A program made the translations under genes and the position numbers. DNA of 64,000 nt from Isoetes taiwanensis (Eukaryota; Streptophyta; Lycopodiopsida; Isoetales; Isoetaceae). Position 1 is the first letter of the stretch. Every line of letters begins with the position of its first letter. This document shows positions 2,699-62,300 of the stretch, in pieces. The DNA lies in contig JAJEKV010000505.1 of NCBI GenBank assembly GCA_021234155.1, positions 1-64,000 on the forward strand, in the 5' to 3' direction. The notes beneath the pieces are model-generated. The model made no database searches and was not told the DNA's origin. It saw only the letters and a list, made by a program, of their open reading frames with translations.

Positions 2699-3061
2699 TT
2701 TTTCGGCGGTACATCAACCACTCATCTATTAGCATTGTATTTTTGGGGTCCAAATGATATAATTGGATTTTCCGTTATTTTTAGGTGGGTAGTTAGCATG
2801 TGTGCAGCTACCCGCATCCCTCATTAGAAAATCTCTTTGAGATGAATGAGAAGCCTATCTATCGAGGCTTTGTTGGTTTCATGCGAGTCGCAGTGCAAGA
2901 ATCTAAAAAAAACCCTAATGACATGAGACCTTCTCCTCGGGACCGGTATCATATGATAAACAATCCTGTATGAATTATGAATTCACAATCAGTGCAGAAT
3001 TGAAATAAATGAGAAGGAGGGACTCTTACATGGGATAGGCTCCCACACATTGCTTATTCAG

Positions 3062-4622
3062 TTAAGACTGTCCCATCTTTTCAGGATTATCCATACCAGG
3101 ATGCTCGAAGGAGAAGGCCTCCACTATCACGAATTCACCTTTTACATCCGTGATCGTAGCCCAAAGTGCGCTCCTAAGATGGACATGCCATTGTGCATTA
3201 TATAGAAGAATGAGATTAGATTTGGTGCTCATCCCTTTTTTCTTCTTGTTAGCCCATTCTAGAGTGGTAAGGTCGTCCAGATGCATAAAAAAATCAAAAT
3301 CCAGAATAAAGTCATATGTCATAATCACCATTGTTCTCATGATTACATCGGGATCATCCTCCCCATCATCTGTCACATTGAAATATATGGATATCTGGTG
3401 CATGGGTGATGAAGCAGCACCCAATTGGTCGGATGAGGGTAAATCTTTTTCAATCCTCATTCTTGGTTTTTGAGGGGCTTTGAAGAACATCCCTGCAGCT
3501 ATAGACTTGGTTAGCTTGCTAACCGGTGTGTAAGGGGATTTCGGCTGCTACGGCTCCCGTCAAACATGCCACAATAAAGTAATTTGATCTGCAAACCCTC
3601 CTTGCATGTCTCTAGATTACTATAAGCTTCTCGGTCTGCCCACTCTTTTCTGTCCACAGAATCCAACCCATAATTTTGTGCCACATACATCTCATACTGT
3701 GCAATCTTTTTACCCTTCATTCTCTCCCTCTCAAACCTCCTCCGAGCAATATAAATGTCAGCATACTAAACCAAAGTGTACTTTTTGTCCTCATCCTCTG
3801 GAATATTTTCGAGCATAGCCCGACCACAACCCAAATCAAGCTGCCAGCATCTCTGCAAAAACCTGTACAGATTGACCTTGTACTTGTACTCGAGATCAAG
3901 GGCATGCCTCAAGTTATATTGTTCCATGTCACGCCCTTCCCTTCTTTTTTGCTTTGTAACAAGCGGCCTTTTTCTGCCCTTTGGAGCCCCTGCTACAACA
4001 ACATCCCATTCGTACTCCGTGAGCAGGTGAAGTGCTTTTTGGTAGAAGACTATACACAACCATGAAATAGACAAACATGCTTAGCCTTTTTACTACTATA
4101 GAGTAATACCTGCATTCCCAAGCTGCATCATCGATCTCAAGTCCTCCTCTGAGTAGGCTGCTACCACTTTAGAAGGTATGGGTTTCCCCCGGGTTGGGCT
4201 AACCTCTCTGTCCGCTTGATCTTCTTAATCTCCCTCAAGGAGCTCGGATGCAAAGGAGTTAACTGTTTTTCCTCCTTGGCCTTGGCTTTCACAACCCAGG
4301 CTGCTTGCATCATCTCCTTCTACTCTGGAAATAACTCCCCTTCACTACCGTGATCCTCTTCCACAATATGATCTCTGTTCTTCCTCAGGATCCACTTCCA
4401 TTCTCTTTGAAGATTCTGCTACATCCTCTTTCTCCAAGGATTCTTCCCACGGCATCTAGAAGAAGGATGAGCTCTCACTCTCATCCTCACTCTGCCATTT
4501 TTGAAATCTCGCCCCCCGAGTGCTTGCTCTGTCGCCGGAAACTGCCATAGCTTATCCTTTGTTTTCCTACTCTGTTTTTTCAAAACCCTCGACCACTGTT
4601 CTGACACGAGAAAAATTGACAA
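3062..4622 (-). pseudogene. Decayed multi-exon gene, unknown product
   Basis: Reading the minus strand from 4,622 down, several coding-like stretches follow one another: a basic segment (4,419-4,622), a Lys/Glu-rich segment ending RLAQPGG (about 4,195-4,360), a 102-residue block (3,766-4,074) that continues after one stop into 3,511-3,765, and a 142-residue block (3,062-3,490) rich in Asp/Glu. Frame changes and stops break it, although one junction near 4,110 looks like a splice donor. I recognise no domain. The Lys-rich linker followed by a conserved-looking tail resembles proteins carried by plant DNA transposons, but this is only an impression. No terminal repeats were found around it. Confidence 0.35.
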
Positions 4623-6491: not shown

Positions 6492-9400
6492 TCAATCTCG
6501 GTTTTCCAATAAAAGTGGGTAAATCCTTGAGACTTTGTATCGGCTTATTACGAATTGTCCATATTGGAACTTCATCGCCGGGTTTCGACATTGGAACTTT
6601 AGCCATAATGGCATTGTAAATTTTTCTATCTGTTCTGTTCCCCTTATCAATGTTTCAACTCTTCCCAAGTTATCCATTCGACCTCTTTGAAGATCATAGA
6701 GAGTTTTAGTCCCCGCTCTACACCAAGCTTTATATCTTTGGGGGGTGTTTAAGAGCCGGACACCCCTCTTCTGAGAAGCTAAGCCCATATGCCAGAAGAA
6801 GTGGCAGTTGCCATTTTCCAAATTATCTTCTTTTTCCCTGAAGAGGAGAGAGACTTCATTCCAGGCTTCTAGAATTCTTTTTACTAAAGGGGAGGTGTGG
6901 CTGCCTGTGTTGAATTGAATGAATGCTGATTCAGGAAGTTGGTGCTCCATATTCAAACTTCCAACAGGCCTAGATTGCAATATCCAATACCTCAATAATT
7001 TCATAGTTGGGAGATTTGGATCCATGAATGGCTCTCCATACTAATTTTGGTAACCCGAGCTTGGATTTTGTTTAAACATATCTTTGCAGCCCAAACCTCC
7101 CTCCTTTTTGGCCTCACCAGGTTATGCCAGGCCACTTTATGATCCTTGTTCCAAATAAAGTTCCTGATAGTAGATTCCAGCTGATTGTAGGAGGCTTTGT
7201 CTGCTATTATGACTGACGAGAAATAAACATGCGTGCTGGTGATAACATTATTGGCTATCTCAATTCTGCCAGCCATAGAAAGGGAAGTAGGATATTGTGC
7301 GACTTTTTTTAATCCTATTCACTATTGAAGACCACAGTCCATGGATATTCATGTTCAGAGCTAGGGGTAGGCCAAGAAGCTTAGTGGCTGAGTTTTTTGG
7401 GAGGACTTTAACATCTTCCATAACTGTATTATCAGTCTCCATCACCACCAAACTTTTTTCTTTGTTAAGGTGAACACACGAGGCTTTCCCAAATATGCTT
7501 AACATGTTTAAGAAGTTTTTCAAGCTATGACCATCATCCTGTAAAAAACAGAATGTGTCATCAGCATATTGCATCAAAGTTAGGGTTTTTCCTTGTTGAG
7601 GTAGTTGCAAACCCTTGAGATGGCCTTCTTGCAACATGCTCTTGGTAGCACGAAGTTACCATTTACGCTACTATAAAGGAATAAATAGGGTGCCGGGGGC
7701 AACCTTGTCCCTCCTCTTTGAATAGGAAAGAATTATTTGGATCCCCATTCACTAGAATAGAAGAACATGCTTTAAGGTTGAAACCATGTATCTTCTTAAT
7801 GAAATCTTCAACAAAAGCCCATTTTCTCCATAGCTTTATATAAAAGGGCCATTTGATTGTATCATAGGCTCGCTAAAAATCGGATTTAAGTAACATGCAA
7901 CCTTGCTTTGAAAGCTTGTTCGGTGTAATCCTTCATGAGCTCCCACAAAGTTGTCAAGGATGCTTACGTTTGGAAGAAAACCAGTTGAATTTGGAATTCG
8001 ATCACATTCATCAAAGTCCCTTTCAACCTTTCTACCATGATCTTAACAATGAGTTTGTATGTGGTGTTAGTGAGTGAAATTGGTCTCCACTCATTAAATT
8101 TCTTTGGATTCTCTGTCTTAGGGATCGTGAGCAACCAGGCCAACATTGATTGAGGGATGAAGACTCTGTGCCTCCCATGCTCCCTGCACCAAGGTGATAA
8201 TATCTTCCTTCAACATATCCCAAAATTGGACATAAAATTCAGGGGGCAGTCCATCCGGCCCTGGACTTTTACCATGGTCCATCATCTTGAGAGTATCAAA
8301 AATCTCTCTTTCAGAAGGAGTTTCAAGCAAATCTTCAGTATCAATATGAGAAGATTCAGGGATAGCCTTGAAGAAAGTGTCCATGCTGTGTAGATCCACC
8401 TGCTCCTCCTTAAATAATTCAACATATTTTTGTCTAAAGAAATTCTTAATTCCTGCTTGGGTCCTCTATAATTTCATTTTTCATTCTCAACCAACTGAAT
8501 CCCATTGTTTACAGTGCATTTTTTCTTGGCTCTAAAAAGAAGAAAGAGTTATTGCTTTTATCCATGCAATTAGTGTAAATGCATTTACTTCTCACAGCCA
8601 TGGACTTTGCCTCCTGTTCTTCTATATGCTTTACCTTGACTTCCAGTTCACTCTCCTGCTGTTGCAATGCTACATTTGCTTTATCCACAAAAAGTTTTTC
8701 TCTGACTTCTTTCATTGCCCTGTAGATAGAATTTTTTTCTTCTTTCTTTCCCATTGTCCACTTCTTTCCCCATTCCTTGATCCAAGCTTTGACTTTTTTG
8801 TACTTCTTGCTGAAATTTCCCATCGACCACTTGTTCCAGACCTAGGTAAACTTAAGAAGAAGTTCTTAAATTCTTCCACAAATTTTGCATTTGATAGATA
8901 TGAAGTATTGAGTCTAAAAGGGGTAGACATTCCTCTCGGGGCTATAGTGTTATCCTTGGATTGCAAAATCTGAGGAAAATGATCTGACAATGAGTTACCA
9001 AAATCAGAGGTAACTATTGCACCTTCCCAAGGGCTCATTCCTGGATTAGTAATATAGTATCTATCCAAGAGGCAGAAAATTCTATCCTCATTTTTCCTTT
9101 GTTGCTCCGGGAAAAGGTATTTGAGGATGAAGGGGCTGGTAGACAAAGGGGGCATCGGGAGCTCCCACTCTTCTTTTTTCTTTTCTTGTCATATTAATTT
9201 TCTTGCCCACTTTTCGATCCCAAGATGGAGTATTGTTAAAATCCCCACTTAAGATCCAATTATCGCATTTTGACTCTGGAGCCAGATCCTCATTTCTTTC
9301 CACTGATTTTCTCTTTCCCCAGGGTCTGTAGATGCATAAACATTTATTACTCCCAAGGAGCCATGCTTTGTATCCAAAACAACACATAACCATCACTTTG

Positions 9401-9620
9401 TTGGATGCACAAAGGCTGAAATCGTTTCATTCCCTTCCAAGCAATGAGAGTGCCTCCTTTTGTACCCTTTGCTACGCCTTGGATGGAGTTGTACTGGGGT
9501 CAATCCATTTTTCCTGGTGTGTTTGATGCTTCAAAACTAGGGAGCCTATGTTCTTCAAAGCATTAGAATGTCAGCTTTTCAAGTCCCTGATTGCAATAAT
9601 GGCTCTTTTTCTCTTAAGAG
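6492..9620 (-). pseudogene. LINE ORF2 (endonuclease + reverse transcriptase), broken
   Basis: The ORF begins near 9,620 with a block like KRKRAIIAIRDLKS, typical of the start of the endonuclease domain. Endonuclease motifs are GDFN (9,235-9,246) and SDHFP (about 8,972-8,990). Reverse transcriptase motifs follow: DGLPPEFY (about 8,235-8,260), NEWRPISLT (about 8,070-8,100), the catalytic YADD at 7,557-7,568, then LLGLPLAL. 6,492-7,025 matches the region after the RT in plant LINEs, with NTPQRYKAW. In intact elements this enzyme nicks the target and copies the RNA in place. At least five frame breaks or stops are present. The last 1.2 kb (5,295-6,490) holds the decayed C-terminus and 3' UTR. Confidence 0.85.
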
Positions 9621-9883
9621 GTCCCTTGATCCCTCTAAGATTTTCATTTAATTTATTTCTTGTGTTACTTGCCGGCCCATCCTTGACAAAAGTGAATTGT
9701 CTCTTCTGTCTCTTTTTGACAGACCCTGGCATAGGTGTCATAAAGACTTCCTCTTCCACAGTTAACATTTGATCAGTTGGGGCCCTAATTTCCTGTTCAG
9801 GCTCCTCACTTAATGTATTCTGATCCATGTCATTTGTCTTCTCTCTTTCTATGTCAGTTGGAGTTTGAGGCACAACTTCAATG

Positions 9884-11644
9884 TTATCCCCATAATCCTT
9901 TGGGAGATGAACTTCCACGGGAATCAGGGATAATTGTTTCCATATCTGGCTGCTTGTCAAAAAGCTTTTGAGCCAGAAGTGGTGAAACCTCAAAAAATTT
10001 TGAGCATTCTCCAATGTATTGATTCCCATTAGGTTCTTGTTCAGATTCAGTTTCAGAGTCCATCTGCTGGACATCAATCCTTTCCCTTATTGTAAGTTTA
10101 GGATTTGCATTGACATTTTCATTGAAATTTGAGTGAAGAGGATCTTGCTGATCTTCAATCTTTTTATCCTCCACCTTCCCTTTCAATTTGAGGTTTTCCA
10201 CAGGTGGGGGTTTATTTAACACTTTTACTTCCCCCATCATTTCTTTTTTTTGTTTTCTTCACCCATTCCTTATTGGCCTTTTTCTTTTCCCCCTCCTGCT
10301 GTCTCTTTTGTTGTTGTTTCTTGATCCTTCTGCTGCTACCATTCCTATTTTTATTTTGTTTGGCTCTCTTAGACACAGGAGTAATCCATTCACCACCCTG
10401 CTGAATCTGTTCCTTAAAAGCCACCTGTTTGGGATAGATCCTTTGACTAGCAACTTTGCAAATACCTCCTCCATGCAATCTGAGACCACAGTCCTCACAG
10501 ATCGGAGGTAGTCCATTTAATTGGATCTTTAAATATCGGTTGTTTCCAAAGAAATCAATGTATTCGATTTCTCCCGGGATCTTCTTTTGCAAATCAACCT
10601 GTTTCCATGCTCTCGGGGCCTTTTCAGAAACAGTTTCCATTCCAATGTATTCTCCTATCTCGGAGAAGAGAATCTTGAAAATTTCCTCGTGCCAATACAT
10701 TGGATTTAAACCCTCTGTTGACACCCAGGCTGGGTGATGCACTTGTGAGGGATTTTGTGGGTCAAAGGTCGGGGTCTATTTCTGAAAGAAAAATTGCGTG
10801 TTTGCTCTTGAAATAGTACCCTGTTTTAAAAGAAATTTTGCTGATGACTCACTCCAGCACTCCACCATGAAGTAGGGAAATTCCAGCCAATAAATCCGCG
10901 TAATTTGAACTTCCCTACTCATCTTGATGAGTTCGAGCTTGATGCTAGAAAGATTAACTCCCTCATGCCTCACGCATCCAATTAATGCCCTGGAGCTGTA
11001 GATACCCATTTTTTCTTTTGAATAGGAGTGATTTAAAACAGGTTTTTTACCTCGAAATTCTTTGGGGGCCGATTGATTCATCTTTGCTTGAACCTCCCTT
11101 TGAATCTCGTTCACCCTATCGATAATAGGCTGCACCACCGTCCCATTTTGCATCTCCACCATCGTAAGCCCTGCCTGCTTTCTTGTGCCCACCATTTTCT
11201 TGCTTTCCGGCTCCGGCTGCAGGTAAACCAAGAAATCTCCAAACGCTTAATGATCTTTCCTGGACCGGACTTCCCCTTTTCGATTAGCCTCAATAGCGGT
11301 CGAATGATGTCTTCTTTTTCCTTAGGTTCTAGCTTGTGGAGAAGCGTTTCGGATCCGATGTCTTGTAATCTCGTGGTCCCGGCCCACCTTATCATAGTTT
11401 CATCCCTGGTCTGTGGAAACTGTCACTGTTAACCCCATATTTCCCTTTCTTTGCCAAGGTGCAGGCACACATTCCATGGTTGCCCATCTTCTTTCCCTTC
11501 AAAAGATACAATCTGTTGGCTCTGTCCCTGTTGCACACTCTCCAAGGCAGATTGTTTTATCTCCCCTTCTTCCACATCTCCCAATACGACCGTAGGGGCC
11601 ACATTCCCATTTTCCTGACCTATTTCCATCTCCCTCACCTTCAT
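9884..11644 (-). pseudogene. LINE ORF1 (gag-like RNA-binding protein), broken
   Basis: The likely start is at 11,644 (MKVREMEIGQENG), about 80 bases from the element's 5' end. Following the minus strand, 10,776-11,231 resembles the N-terminal globular domain of plant LINE gag proteins (DUF4283-like), ending near FPYFMVECWSESSAKFLL. After one stop, 10,212-10,742 continues with GEIEYIDFFGNNRYLKIQLN and a zinc-knuckle-like CEDCGLRLHGGGIC. A Lys-rich tail follows, then an acidic stretch (9,884-10,240). In intact elements this protein binds the LINE RNA. Here it is spread over at least three frames, so it cannot be made as one protein. Confidence 0.7.
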
Positions 11645-19081: not shown

Positions 19082-19861
19082 ATGGCTCCTCTTCTTCTGA
19101 CTGCCGAGCAAGCTCGCCGTAACTTAGAATTGTTGAAATATGAAGGCAGCAAGAAGATCAAGACAGAAGATCTTCCAGGGGCGACTAGCATTGGCGAAGC
19201 CATTAGCGGAGCTAGTGCTCTCAACTTGCCCGAAAAGGCTTCCCCTCCTTCAAACGTGGAGACGTTTCAGAATCCAAAGCTTCATGCTGATGTCCTTTCT
19301 ACTTTTCTTGCCACAGCCATGGCCAGCGTCAACTATACCCCCACCAATGCAACTGGAGATCCTGCAAAGGAAGCCAAAGGGTTTGCAGATCTACTTTCCG
19401 CCCTGGTAGGCTTTGGGAGCTACATGCCTTTGGTAAGCTCCGCCAAACGAGACTTTAGTTTTGGCAAAGTATACTGTAAGGCATTGTTAGAGGAGATTGA
19501 GTCGTTTGTTGGTGAAAGTGGCATTCAGAATCCAACCATCGTGATTAGGCAGCTCCTAATTGAAGCTTCTTCTTTGACAAGCATAGAAGAGACGCAGACT
19601 ATGTTTGTTGGGTATCACTTCGAAGGTGCAGAAAGCAACCCAGCACTCTGCATATTCCATGGCATTGCCAAAATGTCACGCACAGATCTTGGTAAAAGTA
19701 TGCCAACTCCCAACCAGTCCATCGTAGTGCGATCCTACAAATATGAAATCATCAGTAAGCTTGTGAGCAGCATGGCTGAGGCATTGGCTATCACTGTAGT
19801 GCCTGCAGAGACCCTTATCAAAACCATCAACAACGCGCTCTTCCTGCTCCCCAGTAACTAA
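19082..19861 (+). CDS. Unknown 259-residue protein, intact and intronless
   Basis: This is the longest clean frame in the window. The start context CTAGATGGCT is good for plants, an in-frame alternative start is absent nearby, and the frame ends at TAA (19,859-19,861). The protein begins MAPLLLTAEQARRNLELL, with a charged N-terminus (to about residue 60). A mostly helical-looking, Ala/Ser/Leu-rich body follows, ending LIKTINNALFLLPSN. I see no signal peptide, membrane span, Cys cluster or catalytic motif, and I do not recognise the family. Codon use and unbroken length suggest selection. No intron is visible, so it may be a retrogene or a gene acquired from another source. Degenerate direct repeats lie upstream. 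Function unknown. Confidence 0.7.
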   Translation: MAPLLLTAEQARRNLELLKYEGSKKIKTEDLPGATSIGEAISGASALNLPEKASPPSNVETFQNPKLHADVLSTFLATAMASVNYTPTNATGDPAKEAKGFADLLSALVGFGSYMPLVSSAKRDFSFGKVYCKALLEEIESFVGESGIQNPTIVIRQLLIEASSLTSIEETQTMFVGYHFEGAESNPALCIFHGIAKMSRTDLGKSMPTPNQSIVVRSYKYEIISKLVSSMAEALAITVVPAETLIKTINNALFLLPSN

Positions 19862-24570: not shown

Positions 24571-24574
24571 TCAA
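24571..24574. repeat. Target-site duplication TCAA, left
   Basis: TCAA abuts the left terminal inverted repeat; the same four bases abut the right one at 31,966. Confidence 0.65.
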
Positions 24575-25092
24575 GGGCAAAAGTATGTTGGCGGGGGTAT
24601 CAAAAGCATCGCGTCCGGACGCATGCTTATATGTGGTTTTAGCCCGCTTTTAAAGCACCCCCGCTTTTGCTTAATTTGGGTGTTGGTGGGTGTACCGCTG
24701 GTCATTTTTCACGCCCTTCATGTACCTCACGGCCGTCCACCTCGAACGAACGTTAGGAAAATGATTGTGGGATTTTGGCTACGGATTTTCACGAAGTGGT
24801 TGTACCTTGCAAATTCCGAGTGGTGAACTACCGATCTCATGGCCCATGCAAATTCTCCTCAATTCACTTATTCTCCAGTCTCAAGAATTTCATGGCGCCC
24901 TTGATGCGGCACGAAGGCAATCACCGTTTAGCATTGGATTTTCGAAACTGATGAATTCCAATCTGATGATCTAGATTTGTTGAATGTCAATGCAACAGGA
25001 AATATCGGCGTGAAGATCGGTTTTTCTCTGCAATTTACAAGAAATTGAATGCAAGAGAGAAAGAGAGAATCTGATTACAATAAGATAAGATA

Positions 25093-28000
25093 AAGCGGTG
25101 GTTGAGCGGGGGAAGATCGAGCATGAGGACTTGAGGCAAGAAATAGCCAAGCTTGTAGTTGATTACCTCAACAAGCTCACTAAAAAGCATTCACCGAACT
25201 CAAGGCCGGAAGTGTGATGAAAGAGGGTGGTTCATCACCACAGAAATGGAAATCTCGGAACACTGAATTTTGCCAAATCCAAAGGATTGCAAGATAGGGT
25301 TCTTGCCTCAACAACTTGAAACGGCACAATGGTAGCCACAAAGAGGCAAAAAGAACCATGCTTCTTCCACAAAATTGAGATGCAATTCCACTATGGCGGA
25401 AAATTAGGTACATCTAATTCTTGCTTTCATGCTTGTGCTTTTTTATGCTTTTAAGTGCTTAATTCTGAATTTTAAAATCAAGTGCAGGCTTCTTTATCCT
25501 TGAAGGTGATTGTATCTGCTTTCGGTCTTTGGTTGGGATAGGTTCATTGAATAATGTGCAATATCTCTTATGATAGGTTCCAAAAGGGCAACAATTGCAA
25601 CTGCTGCATTAAGAAAATCTAAAGCTGTCCTTGGATATGGTCCGTGGTCTTGCTTCCAAAGGAGGTTGAGGTGCGATTCTCTCACCCCTGCTTGCAAGCA
25701 AAGCATAATAGAATACGGAAACAAAATAGCAGAGTCTCTCCTTGCAAGAAAGATGTTGTGAACACTGTTGGAGAGTCAGACTTCCAAATTTCTTATCCCT
25801 TGCACCTTATGGAGGTCACACCTGGTATAAGGTTCCATACAAAAGCTCCTTGCTATTCTTGCATAAATATTTCTAACAAAAGGCCACCATTCGGTGACTT
25901 TTTCAACAATACAAAAAGGCACATCCTGAACACCCTGTTTGCTTAAAGGCTTTCGAGAAGTTGAAGCCTATTTATGTAAAAAAATATCGAAAGGAAATCT
26001 GATATTGCATATACCATATGAAGTTGGGTATGCGTGGTAGGCTGAATGCTTTAAGGTCAGTGAAAAACGGATTTCATGGTGAAGAGTGCAAAATGCTGTT
26101 AGAGGTCACGTGGACTGGTGAGAAGATGTCGACCAACCAATATCACGTTATGACTCAAGCGGCGAAGCTCACGGAGGGTCGTGGTTTGCAACAAGAGCGA
26201 GGGTGAAGAATGGTATAAACATGGCGCTTGATCGAGAAATGTCGAAAGTGTGGCATAAAAAGTCTTCCTATATGTCCAAAAAGAGAGGATCATGAGTTCT
26301 TGCTTGAATGGAAAACATTTTTAAAAGATAATACTCTCTTTATTGCATGTTGCAACATGCTTGAGATGTGTTGTCATCCATTTGAATACTGTGCTTTTTG
26401 TGCTCTGGACCTTGCCTCTGATTCGGTGGAAACAGAAGAAGCTGGTGGAGTTGCAACTATGTGTTACCAAGGAAGTACCGGTGGGCTAGAAAAAAGATCA
26501 ATGCGACCAAGAAGGGAAACAAAAGTAAGAAATCCAAGGTAGGCGGTGGGACCTGATCACAAAGGCGCAAAAAGCACAAAGGCGAGACCTCAACGGCAAG
26601 GGGAAAAAAAGAAAGAACCAAAGCGGTTCTTAGATTGTCTTACAAGAGAACGGCGGTGAAGAATTTTATTTCTATCGTGTTCCACATTGAAGATATTTGT
26701 GCCACACAATTCTGAGGGCTAGATGGCGGGGCCACAATTCGAGTTACTGGAGTTGCCCCAAGATAGCACTGTTATTTATGTAATTGATTTTGCAGAGAAT
26801 TACAACATAAAAATATAAAGGGAGGTTCAAAGCCAGCACTGGCACAATGACCAGATAACAATTCTTGTCCACATCACGTATAGGATAGACAAAAGCTCTG
26901 GGAATAGAAAGCTATTGAAGGAAACCCATTTTTACTTAAGTGATGACAAGATTCATGACACTCTTTTTTTTTTGTGCAACACTTGTCTTAGAAAGCACAA
27001 TTCATGGCTTGTATCAAATGGTGTAGAATTCTCCAAGCATATAGTTTGAATTCAGGATGGTTGTTCTAGCCAATTCAAATATGCCTTCTACCATTCTATT
27101 TCCTACCAAGATATCACTATGATGAGCTATGGGGGAAGAAAATAGTATAGAATTTCTTTGGGACAGCCCATGGTAAGGGAGAGCACGATGGACAAGGGGC
27201 AGTCCTTAAAGGGGCATTTACTAGAGAGCAGCTCAAGTATGATGGGGTGAGATTTAGGGGTGATGCTGATGCTTGTGAATTCGCAACTCGTTGGAATGAA
27301 GGTACCAACAACGGGAACATCAAAAGGTATTATGCTTTCATCTGGCAGATTACGTTGAGTAATGATGTTGGAATGAGGTGACATCCGCTATCTTATCTGC
27401 TGTATACTGGTAGTAGTGCTGTAATAACTGTGCGAATAGTATATGCCGTCTATCTGTGAACTGCTGTAATGTGATGAGTAGTGCTGTATTATGCTGTCTG
27501 TGAGCTGCAATACTTGTTGCTGTCTCTTTGCAGGTACTTCTGGTTAATTGGAAAGGATGATGTTACAGACCGGCTGGACTGTGCCAGGGTGGAAGGGACT
27601 AAGGAAATACACAGCATCCGGACATACATGTCCAAATCGACTACAAAAGTGGCTCAGAGAGGTTTAAGTTGTTTCTGTGGTAACTGTTTGAAGGGAAACT
27701 GGTCATGTTGTGTGAATAGGCACAGGTTGAAGAATTGGAAGTATGTGACACTAAAGCCTATGAAGTCTACTGGCGAAACACTTGATGACGAAATTGACGA
27801 GGCATTTTTTGAAGGTGATGGGGAATGGCTTAGTGGAAACATAGAGGAAGGTGACAACTTTGCAGTTGTAGCCAAGGAGGGCAATCAAGAGAATGCAGAC
27901 TTCTATGTGGTGAAGTGTGTGAAGCCGAGGCATATTCTTGACAAGATTGTACATGACAGTTGGGGTCAGACTTTTAATGTCGATGAACATGTGCTGGCTG

Positions 28001-28158
28001 GTGTATACTATGTTATCCAACCCGATGGTAGTTGGGAGCTACTTCAAAACAAAGGTCTTACTTATCAATACAGTCATCATGTCACATCAATCAAGTTTGA
28101 GATGAATCAAATTCCCGACACCAACAGGTTTTCCTTGGCGGGGCTGTCCCATCGATGA
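25093..28158 (+). pseudogene. Sola-like DDD/DDE transposase, decayed
   Basis: Pieces in order: KIEHEDLRQEIAKLVVDYLN (about 25,110); a block with GSKRATIATAALRKSKAVLG (25,570-25,760); FEKLKPIYVKKYRK and a Cys/His-type sequence (about 25,945-26,100); a Cys-rich block with CRKCGIKSLPICPK (26,228-26,300). Then come VIDFAENYNIK (first Asp, about 26,790), QDGCSSQFKYAFY (second Asp, about 27,050-27,090) and FFGTAHGKGEHDGQGAVLKG (about 27,155-27,215, third acidic site). After a gap, possibly an intron, a 225-codon open C-terminal part (27,481-28,158) has CFCGNCLKGNWSC. This motif order is that of an RNase-H-like transposase family seen in animals and early-diverging plants. Several stops and shifts show the copy is dead. 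Confidence 0.7.
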
Positions 28159-28359
28159 TCCTTGACCTACCATATGAAGGTTGAAAATGGTTTGACCTAG
28201 TCGTTTCATCATTTCAGCATTTATTTAAATTTTGAAGACCTTTGTCTTAAATTTTGGAGACCTTTATCTGGAATTTTTATGTTGTATTAGAGACATTACT
28301 TGGAATCAATACTCAAGATTACATAAAGTAAGTCATATATATATTACAAAAGGGTAGTG

Positions 28360-28692
28360 TCATGAGTCATTGAAGTTTTCAGAGTGGTTAGAGTCGTCAG
28401 GAATGGTGCCCAGCAACTGCCTTTGTACCTCTTCTGGAGCATTGAGGATATAATAGGCCGAGACAAGATAGTTGTTGAGACAGTAATCCAGCACATCAAC
28501 TGTCTCCTTCTGCAACCATGCATCAGTGATGTCTAGCTGTGAGATTGTTTCTTCTATGATATGAGAAGACAAATAATCCAATCTTTGGACACACAAACTT
28601 CTGCAAAAGTTGTCCTCTTCCCCGCCTTTGAAAGGCATAACAGCGGTTGTGTGCGAGTTTAGAAACCCTTTGTGTAGGTCATCATCTACCAA
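28360..28692 (-). pseudogene. Possible last exon of the transposon's minus-strand gene
   Basis: A 110-codon frame faces the transposase gene tail-to-tail, about 200 bp from its stop. It is acidic and ends LLGTIPDDSNHSENFNDS. No domain is recognised. Its position inside the element and its coding look suggest it belongs to the convergent gene that includes 29,750-31,586, but the splicing cannot be shown. Confidence 0.4.
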
Positions 28693-29749
28693 GAAAATGG
28701 CATACCATGATATTCGTGAAAATCCTCAAGTACAACCTTCAACTCCTTGAAAAAAGTTGCTTTCTTTGTGCGGTTGGATGCTCGCATGCATAACACCGCT
28801 CTTGACCATATACCTTCAAGAATTTGATCATAAATCGGGGAACAATGCATCCACCATATCCCCTTGTATTTAGCAGAGAAGCACTCAGATCACAATATCA
28901 AACCTGCGAAGGCCCACTCCACAAACTCATAATACCCCTGGTGCGCAAATGAGGTACTTACTTGAGTTTCTTTTACAACATGGTTCGATTTGAGGTGGAG
29001 GCAAGATTTTTGGTCTATTCTCCTACAGTTGTATGCGTGTCAAGACACCATTTATGTCAAGCACCATCAACTTACGCCCGGGTTCCCATCCCTCAACGTT
29101 TGCACTCATGTGTCGATGTATGCATTGATTGTGCCGGTCTTTGCGATATGTCTTGGACTCTTTTGGACTACTATGACCATCCGGATCTGTACGGGTGTCT
29201 TTGGCATCTTAGAGATGTCTTGGACATTCTTTGTGATCTCTGGACGGACTCTGCTTTAGATTTGCTACCCGATGATGGAGAGTGCCGATAGCCATAGTCG
29301 ATACATGTCGTGATTAGTACCTCCCTGCCCCAAGCGTATTTGTGTTTCTTGGCTATCGGTAACCCTTCGCGGTGGCCTTCCTTGCTTTTATCCTCCATTT
29401 CATCATTCACAACCCTGCCTTGTTCTCCCAAGATGCAAGGATGTGCTCCAATTACCTAACCGAATTTTGTAGAGAATACACAAGGTGAAATATACGGGAT
29501 AATGAGCACCTTTTGTATGTTAGAGTTTGTGAGCCGCACTCCTTTATCATCAGATTGTCTTCTTCATCCGATTCACTAAGTATAACCATTGGTGCCTTTT
29601 TTCTGCAGACAAGTTTTTTACTCAAGCCTAAGTTGAATGAATTATCCAAATAACATTTGCACATTCAAGGTGGAATAAAACAGGGGATCAAATATATTAA
29701 TTGTTTGAACAAAACCTTCCGGTTGATGGTTTGGGGTTGTCTTGAGCTA

Positions 29750-30406
29750 TCAAGATTTGCACGCTTGAAATACATATGGCAAAATTACATTAGCCTTGTT
29801 TTTTCCAAATGCTACTTCTATAGGGACGTCTTCATCAAGATCAACTTCTGACTCACCCTCACTCTCTTCTTCCACAACCTTCCTGGTCCTTGACCGTGTC
29901 AATCTATTGACCTTGGAAACGACTGCCTGAACCTGCTTGTCGACATCTTTGCCGTCGTTTTTCCTTCTGCAAAGAACCGTATTAGAGGAGGCCTTTGTAG
30001 AGGCAGCTGCAGGATTTGGAACTATAAGATAATTGGTAGCACCATCAGTACTACTTGAATCTCCCTTAGATTCTGCATGGGTTGGTGTCTTCAAACCTTT
30101 GTGATGCCAGTGTACGCAGTTGTGCTGCCAGACTAACTTGTTGTCCAATGTCTCAAAGACATCTTCTAATGTTGCCAATTCAAATTGAGACCCTAAAAAA
30201 AGGCATGTACCTTTTTTTTCCATGTCTTGGTGTGGAGTTTTCACCCTTGTAGACTTGTGCTTAGCTGATCCTGGGGTCCTTTTACTTCTTGGTGTATTGA
30301 CTTGTTTCCTTTTCCTGTTGCTATCAAGAGTTGTGGCTACATGCTCATCAACATCAATCATCTTATTCTCGGTTTTGTGAGATGCTCCAAAGATATAACA
30401 CTTCAC
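29750..30406 (-). pseudogene. Lys/Arg-rich, probably nuclear protein segment of the transposon
   Basis: An open frame of 218 codons. The N-terminal third is basic (SNRKRKQVNTPRSKRTPGSA), fitting a nuclear or DNA-binding protein. The middle has a Trp/His cluster (WQHNCVHWHHKGLKTP), then Ser/Thr-rich linker, then RLTRSRTRKVVEEESEGESE, a basic-to-acidic switch. No known fold is recognised. It lies directly downstream of the zinc-finger frame on the same strand, and both are probably parts of one gene. Confidence 0.45.
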
Positions 30407-30417
30407 GATTGATCAGA

Positions 30418-30726
30418 TTAAAGCTTCCCCAATTCACGCACTAACCCCGTGAGGAATAGTCTCGAGCACTCGAGGCAAAGATGTTTTTTCCATGAGCAAA
30501 TGAGGCAGCTCACATGGTAATGATGTCCACATTTCATCCGCAAGATGAGGGTGTAATCATCCGGAATGCAAGACCCGCAGTGGAGCATCTCCCCACATCT
30601 CCAATTGGCAATTGGAATGGTATTGAGTGATACGACCCGGTGATCATTTCTCTTGGTCATCTCCCTCAACACTTTGACGATACGTAAGTGCTGGCTTTTT
30701 TGCAAGGGAGGGACTCGTTGTTGCAA
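30418..30726 (-). pseudogene. RING-like zinc-finger segment of the transposon
   Basis: The 102-codon frame has the spaced residues CGSC, then KCGHHYHVSC about twelve residues later, then CLEC, followed by RLFLTGLVRELGKL. This Cys/His layout (CxxC...CxHxxxHxxxC...CxxC) resembles RING or PHD fingers, which bind zinc and often act in ubiquitin transfer or chromatin binding. It sits within the inverted-repeat-bounded transposon, convergent with the transposase. A captured host gene or an ordinary second ORF of the element are both possible. The residues upstream (30,730-31,110) read on as WRKYCPLPESMIQGMQDALK with a stop in between. Confidence 0.5.
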
Positions 30727-31361
30727 TCTCGGCGGTTAGTCGACCACCTTTTGTACCATGGTTTCATCTATTGTCCCACCCCCATTTCAAGGAGGGACTT
30801 CAAAACATATCTCGACATATCTTTCTCCCTCCAAAGAATGAATCTCGGAGAGGCACATGCATTAGGATATCGTGATTTTGAAGGCGTGCAATATTGTCCT
30901 TTATGGTCAGCAACTTCCCCTCTGTAGCCGAGAAGAAGGTGCCCTTTGCCTAAGATTGTGCAACTAGTTCCTTCTTGGACACTAGATCACTCTGTTGCAT
31001 TTTTAGGGCATCCTGCATACCTTGGATCATGCTTTCAGGCAAAGGGCAATATTTTCTCCATAAGTCGGAGAACGCCTTTGGGCACATTGCGGTGTTACTC
31101 GAATGACAACCTCCCCCTTCTAATTTTACAACGGTTTCTCGGCCGAGGCTAGCCTTTCTGCTATGCTTTCAGGTGCTGTTGTCTGCTGTGATTTGTTGGG
31201 CTCTCCTATGCTCACAGGGCCGTTGGTGCTGGGTTCACTCTTAATCTTGCTTTCGAATAGGTTCGCCAGCTTTTTGCCCAATTAACCTTGAAATTTTCTG
31301 GATTCTGCTTGCCACTTTGGCAGTTGTTGAATGCAAATAGATAGGAAACCGTCTTCCTTCT

Positions 31362-31586
31362 CTATTCTTCAACCCACGGGTATACCTTGCTTTCAAAGAG
31401 TTCAATTAAAGATTCTTCATGCTCGGCCTTACTTTTGTCAATTGATGTTTTGTTGGAAATGACACCATTGGTATCCCAAACCTCGTTATACTCTGCAGCA
31501 GAAATGACATCGTTCAAAATTGAGAGGGATGTACACCCTCGTTTGGTAGACCCGCATAAGCATGGAAGTCCTCCTTCGTTCGGCAA
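31362..31586 (-). pseudogene. Upstream exon-like segment of the transposon's minus-strand gene
   Basis: A 74-codon frame begins MPNEGGLPCLCGSTKRGCTS, with a Cys cluster, and ends VYPWVEE. It lies about 380 bp inside the right terminal inverted repeat and on the same strand as the zinc-finger frame. The start of the element's second gene is the likely identity; no family is recognised. Confidence 0.35.
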
Positions 31587-31965
31587 TCAGCCAGGTCCGG
31601 TCTTAGGGGCACGTTCCTTCTGGGCTGGAAGAAAGCAAGAAAAATAAATTAACAGGGCACCCTAAGCCCATTCAAAATTGGCAGTGCATTTTGCTTACCT
31701 GGCAAGATGGCATCCGTTGGAATTCTTGGTTGAGCCAATGATTAACAACCTTCTTCACCATAGTGCATTTGAGTTTTGGAATACTAGAGTGAATGTGGAA
31801 ATTCTCGAGCTTCTTCTCCACGGGCTATTTGGCCGGAGTAGCAAAAGTTGGGGAACAGGAAAACGTTCCTTCCGGGTCACATTCATTACTTACGTTATGT
31901 AAGAAGGTTATGATTAGAGCGGGTGACCCTACGTTTATTTGATACCCACCAGCATACTTTTGCCC

Positions 31966-31969
31966 TCAA
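31966..31969. repeat. Target-site duplication TCAA, right
   Basis: TCAA directly follows the right terminal inverted repeat that ends TTTTGCCC at 31,965. Confidence 0.65.
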
Positions 31970-34507: not shown

Positions 34508-37167
34508 GAGGATGGGCATCGAATGTCTGCAAAACAACTTGCATCGAAGGATAAGATCATAAAGGAAAATCCGGTGATTATTCGAAGCCAAAGACCTAAT
34601 CCACCATTAATTGAGAATGCAAGGGATGAACCAGCTACTATTGACAATGCATATGATGAGACTGCACGCAACCTTATAGAAGATTTTGCAACTTTTGAGC
34701 AACTCATGGAAGATGTGAACACACACACACACATATGGAGCATCATGACAATGCAACTAATGACAATAATGACCAAGAATATCCAACACAATATGTTGAT
34801 GAATACATCATGAAGGAGGCTTCAAAGAAAAAAATTGTATGAAGGTTGTACAATATCGCAGCTTGTCGGTCCAATCTATCAATACTCAAAGATTCAAGCT
34901 CAAGACAAGATATCCAATATAGCTATTGACGCTTATACTCAAGTACATCTCTCTTCCTTTTGTGTCTATTCTCATAGTTTTGTATTATCTACTAATATAT
35001 AGAATGGGTTTATAGGGAAATTATTGCCGAAGGAAATAACATGCCTAAAAGTCGGCTAAGCGACGCATAAACTAATCAAGGCGCTTTGGTTTTGAGTACT
35101 GAAAAGCATTCACGTAGTGTCCTAATGAATGTATTTTATATTATAAAGATAAGAAGGACTATACGGTTGCCTTATATGTGGATCAGGAAGGTATAAGGAT
35201 GGATTTCAGAGTGATAAAGTCCCCGCTAAAGTATTACATTACTTTCCTATCATTCCAAAGATGAAGCACATGTTTAGAATGAAAGAAAAGGCTGCTCTCA
35301 TGACATGGCATGCACACCACCGTAGCAAGGATGGGATTATGCGTTATCCTGCAGATTCTAGGGCATGGAAATTTATAGAGGAGACATGGTCTGATTTTGC
35401 AACTGAACCTAGGCACATTCGTATGGGGTTGGCAACAGATGGCTTCAATCCATTTTCACAACGAGCGGCCTCTTGGTCAACTTGGCCAGTAATGCTTGTA
35501 AATTACAATATTCCGCCAGATGAATCCATAAAGCGTAGCCACATAATGTTGGTCATGATCATTCCAGGTATTTGCTTTAATATAAATTTAATATCTTTTT
35601 GAAATCGACTAACATTGATTGTGCATATAACAAAGGGCCTTCCCAACCAACGAATTTTGATGTGTACCTTTCTCCGTTAGTTGATGAGCTTCTACAACTA
35701 TGGGATGGAGTGCCAATGGTTGATGCTTCTAGGACAAAATTTACGGGACAAAACTTCATCTTGAGGGGTATTTTGATGTGGACAATGCATGACTACCCAG
35801 GCCTCACCGTATGTACAGGTGTGTGGTTAAATAGCCATTTACAATTTGACATGGTCGCGGATACAACATTTTAAGACCTTACATTGAAATGTAGGACTCC
35901 AAACAAAAGGCAAAATGTGCCGTGTGCGTTGTGGTGAGAAGGTTACGGCTCATTACTCCAAAGAAATGAGGAAGATGGTTTTGAGGGTCACGATAAATTT
36001 CTTCCGAACATCATCCATTGAGGTCGAGAAGAGTTGAAAGCAACGTGACACAAAAGTCAATGACCTCAAAAGATTGGTTTAAGTTGTGGAATAATGTTGA
36101 AGAGAAAGCATGGATTGATGCATTCAATGAGGGGGTGTGTGAAGGACCTGATGATATTGTGATGGATCCTCCTGATGGTATGAAGTGGCTTTCAAGATTT
36201 TATCAATTGCCATATTGGACCGAATTAAAGTTCACGAGCCTATTAGATCCCATGCACATAATAAAAATGTGTGAGAATCAATATGGAAACACATTACGGA
36301 GAGAAAGAAAGACGGAAGGAGCAAGGCAGACCAACTTCAAGTCAAGCCCCGCACAATGTGCTTGGATGAGATCAAACAAACCACCTCCATGGATTCTAAC
36401 AAAGGGTGACTATCAAAAGGTGTGTGCTTCATTAAAATCTCTACGTACTCCAACTGGTTACTCCTCTTCCATGCGCAAATGTTGGACAAAGGGACTCAAG
36501 TCACATGACTTTCACAAGTTACTAGAGGTAAGTTATGCACACTTATTATACTCATTGATGTTTGTTTTTAACTTCACTATTTCTTGCATGTAGGAGTACT
36601 TGCCAATTGTTCTACCAGGTACTCTACCTTCAAACATTTGTGAACCCATTTTCAAGCTAGCCAAACTATGCAGGTATAGCACTTGTACCTTCTCATGGTT
36701 AATAATTCACTTATGTTGATGTTATACCATGTTGTAGGTGGTTGTCATTGAGGGAGATTACCATCAATGACCTACCAGGAATGAGAGAATTAGCAGCTGA
36801 AGTATTGTGCTTATTTGAAAAACAATTTCCCACTAGCTTTTTTGACATCCAAGTGCATTTAATTGTTCATCTGGTCGATGATATCGAGTGGGTTGGTCCA
36901 GTATCATATCGATGGATGTTTTTCCTCGAACGATTTATGAAGGTGCTCAAAGATTTTGTTCGTCAATTAGCAAGACCTGAAGGGAGCATGGCCGAGGGTT
37001 GGATTGCTCAAGATTGTAGATTTGCAGTTTGTCCTTATCTGAACTCAAGAGTTAAAGAAGAATTGAAGCTTCTAGCACCTGACGAGTGTGACGGTAGGCT
37101 ATACAACAAGGGAACAACTTACACATTTGATCGATTGTCTACTTTGCAACCATGTGCCGTGGGATAA
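34508..37167 (+). pseudogene. CACTA transposase TNP2 (Transposase_21 + DUF4218), decayed
   Basis: Segments in order: a 5' exon-like stretch at 34,508-34,813; KKLYEGCTISQL (34,830); EIIAEGNNMPKSRLSDA ending in a stop (about 35,020); CGSGRYKDGFQSDKVPAKVL (about 35,180) and HYFPIIPKMKHMF; then WHAHHRSKDGIMRYPADSRA and FNPFSQRAASWSTWPVMLVN, the core of the Transposase_21 family. IIPG joins PSQPTNFDVYLSPLVDELLQ across an intron (35,570-35,632). LPYWTELKFTSLLDPMHIIK follows at about 36,210, then EYLPIVLPGTLPSN (36,595), and the DUF4218 exon (36,738-37,160) with FFDIQVHLIVHLVDDIEWVG. Frameshifts include one at an AC repeat (34,721-34,733). The protein excises and moves CACTA elements; this copy cannot be functional as it stands. 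Confidence 0.9.
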
Positions 37168-61007: not shown

Positions 61008-62300
61008 TAAAACAGAGTCCAAAACCAAAAAGTTATGTCGAGAAACCTACACTATACCACCCTTTGAGCCCCTCAAATTGGCGCCCGTCCAATTTAAGCC
61101 CAATTTACGAGCCAATCTCTATAAATAGTATGCTTCATTAGTGCTCTATCAAAGCCCTCTGAACAAGCTTTCCAACGAGATAAAAAAATGCCAAAATCGG
61201 AGTCGGATGCAAAAAGTTATGCCAAAAAACTATTTTGCCACCCCGAACCCTTTAAATTGGGCGCCCAATTTGAGCCCAATTTTATGAGCCCATCTCTATA
61301 AATAGTATGCTTCATTAGTGCTCTATCAAAGCCCTCTGAACAAGCTTTCCAATGAGATAAAAATGCCAAAATCTGAGGTCGGATGCAAAAGTTATGCCAA
61401 AAAATCTATTCTCGCCACCGGAACCCCTTAAATTGGGCGCCCCTTAATTTGAGCCCAATTCTACGAGCCATCTCTATAAATAGTATGCTTCATTAGTGCT
61501 CTATCAAAGCCCTCAAGAAGCTTTCCAACCAAATAAAAAATGCCAAAATGAGTCTGATGCAAAAGTTATGCCAAAAAATTTATTGATACCCCAAGGAACC
61601 CCTTAAATTGCGCCCGCCCAATTTGAGTCAATTTACGAGCCTATTTCTATAGATAGTATGCTTCATTAGTGCCTCTATCAAAGCCCTCTGAAGAAGCTTT
61701 CCAAAGAAATAAAAAATCTAAAATCGAGTCCGGATGCAAAAGTTATGCCAAAAATCTATTACGCCACCCCGAACCCCTTAAATTGGGCGCCCGCCCAATT
61801 TGAGTCAAATTTACGAGCCTATTTCTCTAAATAGTATGCTTCATTAGTGCCTCCATCAAAGCTCTTTGAAGAAGCTTCCAACGAGATAAAAATGCCAAAA
61901 TGGACTACGGATGCAAAAATTATACCAAAAATCTATTCTCGCCACCCCCGTAGCCCTTAAATTGGGCCAGCCCATTTGAGCCAAATTTGGGGACAATTTG
62001 TATAAACATTATGCCCAATTAGATATTTTATCAAAGATCTCTCGAACAAGTTTTTCAACGAGCTAAAGGGCGTCGGAACGAGTCGGGATGCAACGTCATG
62101 CCAAACAAATCTATTACGCCACCCGGAACCATTTAAGGGGTTCCGTGGTGGCGTATCAGAACTTTTGGCATAACTTTTGCATTTGGATTCCATTTTCTAT
62201 GTTCTTTAGTTGGTTAGAAAGCTTGTTTGAGGACTTTAATAAACATAATAATTAAACATAATGTTCATACAAATGGGCTCCAAATTTGGCTCTTGGTCGA
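61008..62300 (+). repeat. Satellite-like tandem array, about 177-bp unit, with inverted last copy
   Basis: The landmark ATAAATAGTATGCTTCATTA (or close variants) occurs at 61,121, 61,298, 61,476, 61,649, 61,827 and, weakly, 62,002: spacing 173-178 bp. Each unit also has CAAAGCCCTCTGAA.AAGCTTTCCAA, GATGCAAAAGTTATGCC and AATTGGGCGCC. At 62,117-62,153 a hairpin of CGCCACCCGGAACC and GGTTCCGTGGTGGCG turns the array round, and 62,139-62,290 is an inverted copy. No gene. Confidence 0.85.

Follow-up and report, generated by a model that had tools for sequence, protein, structure and literature searches.

In the window, a stretch of 64,000 nucleotides from Isoetes taiwanensis, a complete but decayed DNA transposon of 7391 bp occupies positions 24575 to 31965 and carries two genes in convergent orientation, a broken transposase gene on the plus strand and, on the minus strand, a gene coding for a RING-like finger and a NIF/FCP1 phosphatase-like domain (Table 1). 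The element begins with GGGCAAAAGTATG at 24575, and the reverse complement of GGGCAAAAGTATG finishes at 31965. These inverted ends match perfectly over 13 bp and extend to about 28 bp in total with a 2-bp gap, and a 21-bp pattern of the ends occurs twice in the window, while 100 shuffles averaged 0.00 occurrences. TCAA directly flanks both ends; the window copy taken alone can be read as having either a 4-bp TCAA duplication or a 2-bp CA duplication with one extra inverted-repeat base, and we take the length to be 4 bp rather than 2 because other genomic copies decide it, as described below. A preliminary description of this DNA had proposed the inverted ends, TCAA on both sides and an extent of 24571 to 31969 including the duplications, and the coordinates proved to be exact.

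The motifs DFAENY, DGCSSQFK and HGKGEHDGQG, which had been picked out in decayed frames, are indeed present in the transposase core, where the frames are interrupted by stops and one frame shift. Asp is invariant at DFAENY, SD..SSQFK and HGKG..DG in seven readable aligned cores, and 86 and 40 residues separate the three Asp in L181 (L numbers denote loci of the assembly). The gene probably contains an intron upstream of its C-terminal exon, because homology jumps there and GT/AG is present. Weak PDB matches of the transposase (E 0.13 and 2) were judged to be chance, and an AlphaFold2 model of the C-terminal exon of the window alone was unusable (mean pLDDT 30). No relatives were seen among the matches listed when the transposase pieces or the read-through were compared with plasmids, phages, and IMG/VR contigs. 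A degenerate HGKG..DG pattern hit four loci in viral contigs, none of them a genuine relative (14 residues at E 0.009 for the best tblastn match), and at least 118 stretches in GTDB genomes, again with no real relative (best tblastn E 0.27 among all 122), and there were no exact matches to the end motif of the element in viral contigs.

Table 1. Features of the transposon in the window, with a region of a related second family
Feature	Position	Strand	Evidence or remark
Left target-site duplication TCAA	24571–24574		4-bp length matched in 31/34 other insertions
Left terminal inverted repeat	24575–24603	+	21-bp core at 2023 assembly sites vs 20 for reversed control
Broken transposase gene, N-terminal part and DDD core	25561–27537	+	tblastn with related intact frames; genome family
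Transposase DDD core	26780–27327	+	followed by probable intron to about 27537
Transposase C-terminal exon, frame still open	27538–28158	+	open reading frame; 17 stop-free copies, median dN/dS 0.19
Broken NIF/FCP1 phosphatase-like domain, C-terminal part of convergent gene	28387–29094	-	55% identity to L181 frame
Open frame, basic and acidic linker between finger and NIF domain	29750–30412	-	open reading frame; similar stretches in L179, L203, L204, L206, L207
RING-like zinc-finger frame of convergent gene	30418–30735	-	resembles L134, L204, L206
N-terminal part of convergent gene	31362–31647	-	no Pfam match; resembles L134, L147, L204, L206
Right terminal inverted repeat	31939–31965	-	end match; 21-bp core family in assembly
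Right target-site duplication TCAA	31966–31969		adjoins right end
Second-family region L208 / L210	G000:C1007:8787500-8797499

The element belongs to an abundant multi-copy family, of which the window copy is a dead member. In the assembly searched (1,658,258,908 bases in 1110 contigs), the 21-bp end pattern with up to three mismatches was found at 1007 + 1016 sites, as against 9 + 11 for the reversed pattern. Among 34 distinct short insertions in the fetched loci, defined as two ends within 1.2 kb of each other, 31 were flanked by an exact 4-bp repeat, with 4 bp the longest match in each, and the other three by matches of 0 or 1 bp. The duplications are diverse (GAAT, GGCT, TACG, TGAG, GCTT, and others), and A or T makes up 73% of their bases. 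These short copies, of 190–261 and 926–935 bp, have both ends in common with the window element, most of those listed matching its left end over about 53–58 bp and its right end over about 33–35 bp. Amplification of some of them is apparently recent, because the best pair among 20 copies of 244–261 bp is 99.6% identical (median 93.3%). The read-through transposase has at least 152 genome matches (from 10,052 loose candidates, of which 102 were scored), and many of these are stop-free. A second full-length copy was found at L204 (7368 bp, duplication CAAG); it carries both genes and, minus-strand gene included, aligns with the window element over almost all of its length at 82–84% identity. The other four 10-kb stretches fetched have the left end only (L205 and L206) or no end (L203 and L207); some of these elements are truncated by the limits of the stretch.

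The gene on the minus strand recurs with the transposase in other copies of the family. In 31 of 32 distinct loci, which comprise the best-scoring transposase matches and two loci chosen for fetching, the NIF domain is convergent to the transposase at a distance of 98–1149 bp (29 of the 30 loci L153–L182, L156 being the window itself, together with L204 and L205; L203, L206, and L207 duplicate L157, L160, and L167). When judged from coordinates alone, 13 of 101 weaker NIF matches lie within 4 kb of a listed transposase match, all 13 convergently, and none of the 49 strongest does so. Similarly, 47 of 150 RING matches have one of the 101 transposase matches within 8 kb, 46 of them in convergent orientation and 37 at 2.0–3.2 kb. 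These neighbor counts are lower bounds, and matches that have no partner cannot be judged. One copy alone would not distinguish an element gene from a separate insertion that landed inside the transposon, and a NIF group exists (L209, described below) with no transposase of either family within the 3.7 kb fetched. We nevertheless reject nesting for the window family as highly improbable, since L204, inserted elsewhere and flanked by a duplication of its own, runs collinear with the window element over almost its whole length, and the gene order is identical in all but one of the loci. The minus-strand gene thus belongs to the element, for which the recurrence of the gene in other copies had been named as a check, and so had the finding of the same ends with varied 4-bp duplications elsewhere; both checks came out in favor of the preliminary description.

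The convergent zinc-finger gene of the preliminary description is real, its RING-like finger being recognizable in a better copy, while the NIF/FCP1-like domain downstream of the finger on the same strand had been overlooked. The stop-free frame of L181 matches PF03031 (NIF, NLI-interacting-factor-like phosphatase) over positions 1–155 of 160 (1.8e-20, 73.7 bits; cut-off 21.8), and L204 also matches it (3.6e-9, 36.9 bits), whereas in the window copy the damage is too great for Pfam to detect the domain, which was related to the L181 frame by tblastn. With a plant NIF consensus, two weak hits in collinear order were seen in the window, along with a better-scoring one elsewhere in it; this served as a lead and was replaced by real copies. 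The usual catalytic motif of NIF/FCP1 proteins is DxD. With a search pattern that left the second position free, DxN was found in 22 of 22 motifs. The domain therefore resembles the NIF/FCP1-type HAD phosphatases (PF03031) in its match above the curated cut-off and differs from them in its DxN motif and in being encoded by a transposon. Because the second catalytic Asp is replaced by Asn, the product probably does not act as a classical phosphatase and may be a pseudophosphatase. The RING and NIF parts possibly form one protein, and the RING-like finger suggests a link of this product to ubiquitin.

A second Sola-like transposase family, with a core about 50% identical to that of the first, was found at L208 by the NIF search; the NIF gene convergent to it (5.4e-21) shares about 30% identity with that of L181. 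This transposase has at least 151 genome matches (150 of 10,674 loose candidates scored), and 14 of the 101 weaker NIF matches adjoin it, 14 of 14 convergently. Because a convergent NIF gene accompanies the second-family transposase too, the pairing probably predates the split of the two families. In L210, a stretch that may not extend to both ends of the element, no pair of inverted ends flanked by a 4-bp duplication was seen. A third NIF group was observed at L209 (G000:C1027:14500000-14503700, minus strand, about 2751–3242; 8.5e-21), also with a DxN motif; NIF matches of its length (465 bp) occur several times in the genome, and this gene is perhaps part of another mobile element.

Both genes of the first family carry the signature of purifying selection in pairwise comparisons of nonsynonymous with synonymous substitution rates (dN/dS; Nei–Gojobori), in which only stop-free copies were used, stop-bearing ones were excluded, and the pairs are not independent. 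Median dN/dS was 0.43 for NIF (14 copies, 86 of 87 pairs below 1), 0.46 for the transposase core (10 copies, 44 of 44 pairs), and 0.19 for the C-terminal exon (133 of 133 pairs), while reading these alignments in the two remaining frames gave 0.90 and 1.24 for NIF and 1.10 and 1.20 for the C-terminal exon. Because both genes show purifying selection, they seem to have been maintained during the spread of the family, unlike a mere passenger. Pack-MULEs passively carry captured host genes, and the second gene could likewise be a captured host gene with no role for the element, in line with host-type NIF matches in the genome as strong as 3.5e-55 and with its altered catalytic motif. We consider such passive carriage decidedly unlikely, as the gene is kept at nearly all of the distinct loci, is under purifying selection with frame controls, and stands beside the second transposase family as well. 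The earlier proposal that the minus-strand genes are the element's own cargo therefore holds as to ownership, while "cargo" is too weak a word for a gene kept with the transposase under purifying selection.

We regard the element as a probable member of the Sola superfamily, judged by its features: the 4-bp length of the duplications, the inverted ends, the type of motifs, and the size agree with the description of these transposons given in PMC10741241, where terminal inverted repeats are stated to range from 11 to 1124 bp. Sola elements have been reported in Physcomitrella and Capsicum (PMC9033089), Azolla (PMC6786969), and Ceratopteris (PMC6890710), and 56.7 Mb (0.6%) of the Cryptomeria genome was annotated as Sola (PMC11539532), so that reports in ferns, one conifer, and one moss favor the assignment. 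The alternative, that the element merely resembles Sola and represents a different superfamily, perhaps an undescribed one, in which duplications are likewise 4 bp long, we hold to be unlikely, though less so than passive carriage of the second gene. It draws on the AWWT-type duplications reported in PMC3627910 for Sola2 elements of slime molds, which only 2 of the 31 duplications here fit. It also draws on the transposase itself, for which no profile match was obtained and whose motifs we presume to be like those of Sola transposases. Against it stand the 4-bp duplications, the inverted ends, the 7.4-kb length, and the series of three Asp in the seven readable cores, putatively of the Sola type, all in agreement with the published description of Sola as far as PMC10741241 gives it. 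Of the Sola membership claimed by the preliminary description, the features have thus been upheld, without a Pfam or PDB match to add to them.

Within the superfamily (Sola1, Sola2, Sola3), the present element shares the 4-bp duplications, the inverted ends, a size inside the published range (PMC10741241), and the three-Asp series, and it differs in its convergent RING/NIF-like gene. The Sola2-Fanzor1 chimeras of slime molds likewise combine a Sola-type transposon with an additional protein gene, as reported in PMC3627910; there, however, the extra protein is Fanzor1 and the other end varies between families, whereas the additional gene of the present family is RING/NIF-like and occurs in 31 of 32 loci. 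A search of titles and the opening lines of abstracts found no description of a Sola element bearing NIF or RING, and the original Sola description and the Repbase entries may record one. What is new is the conserved RING/NIF-like gene.

A second element gene beside the transposase is also found in MuDR (mudrB) and VANDAL (VANC), with a convergent layout in MuDR, and the second genes of these elements serve insertion or counter silencing. They belong to another superfamily, with another duplication length and unrelated accessory domains. By analogy, the likeliest role of the second gene here is that of a transposition helper or an anti-silencing protein, and its product should act by binding, because classical phosphatase activity is unlikely. 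We think it probable that the element is a two-gene, Sola-like cut-and-paste transposon, dead at this locus, whose second gene most likely encodes a helper of this kind. The DDD transposase would recognize the GGGCAAAAGTATG ends, excise the element, and join it into the target with a 4-bp stagger, and would also mobilize the 190–935 bp derivatives. The second protein, a RING-like finger joined to a NIF/FCP1-like domain without the second catalytic Asp, would bind host chromatin or transcription proteins, so that the element stays expressed or its transposition is aided. A bolder proposal, which we put forward tentatively, is that an ancient NIF-type pseudophosphatase, joined to RING in one branch, has been co-inherited across families about 50% identical as a dedicated helper that counters silencing or ties the element to transcription, and thus forms a counterpart of MudrB and VANC built from other domains.

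Several observations weigh against this picture. No convincing match of the transposase was obtained in Pfam or PDB. L177, the sole exception among the 32 loci, has no NIF match, and among the matches listed 74 of the 101 weaker NIF matches and 103 of the 150 RING matches have no adjoining transposase. The finger stays below the Pfam cut-off, with 4.6e-4 and 20.8 bits against 27.3 for zf-RING_2 (PF13639) in L206 and E 2.9 in the window copy, and no RING pattern was found in the 10 kb of L210 for the second family. Lastly, the alignment of the transposase core in its other two frames gave dN/dS values of 1.15 and 0.74, the latter of which is not near 1.

Elsewhere in the window, an ATG-initiated open frame of 259 codons without a Pfam match lies at 19082–19861 (plus strand), and the remains of a CACTA-type element with Transposase_21 (9.7e-30) and DUF4218 (5.4e-28) frames lie at 35153–37167 (plus strand). 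Remains of a LINE-like element occupy 6492–11246 (minus strand), with weak RVT_1 and DUF4283 matches under the cut-offs. An inverted repeat at 592–888 has 146-nt arms that are 82% complementary and a spacer of 5 nt, and a tandem array at 61069–62130 consists of 5–6 copies of ~177-bp units with about 80–84% matches. Fragments of the plastid gene chlB were also seen in the assembly (11 matches, all under the family cut-off, best 3.8e-26), which suggests a host whose plastids retain this gene and hence a plant other than a flowering one.

To our knowledge, only a handful of accessory proteins have been identified in plant transposons, and these revealed anti-silencing mechanisms. The conserved RING/phosphatase-like partner described here is a new, testable candidate in an abundant and little-studied family, from the lycophytes, in which there has been little functional work on transposons. 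Any census of NIF and RING domains in this genome is inflated by transposon copies. For the Isoetes assembly, the repeat library is reported to have been filtered against plant proteins (PMC8566536), so that such transposon genes may have been left unmasked.

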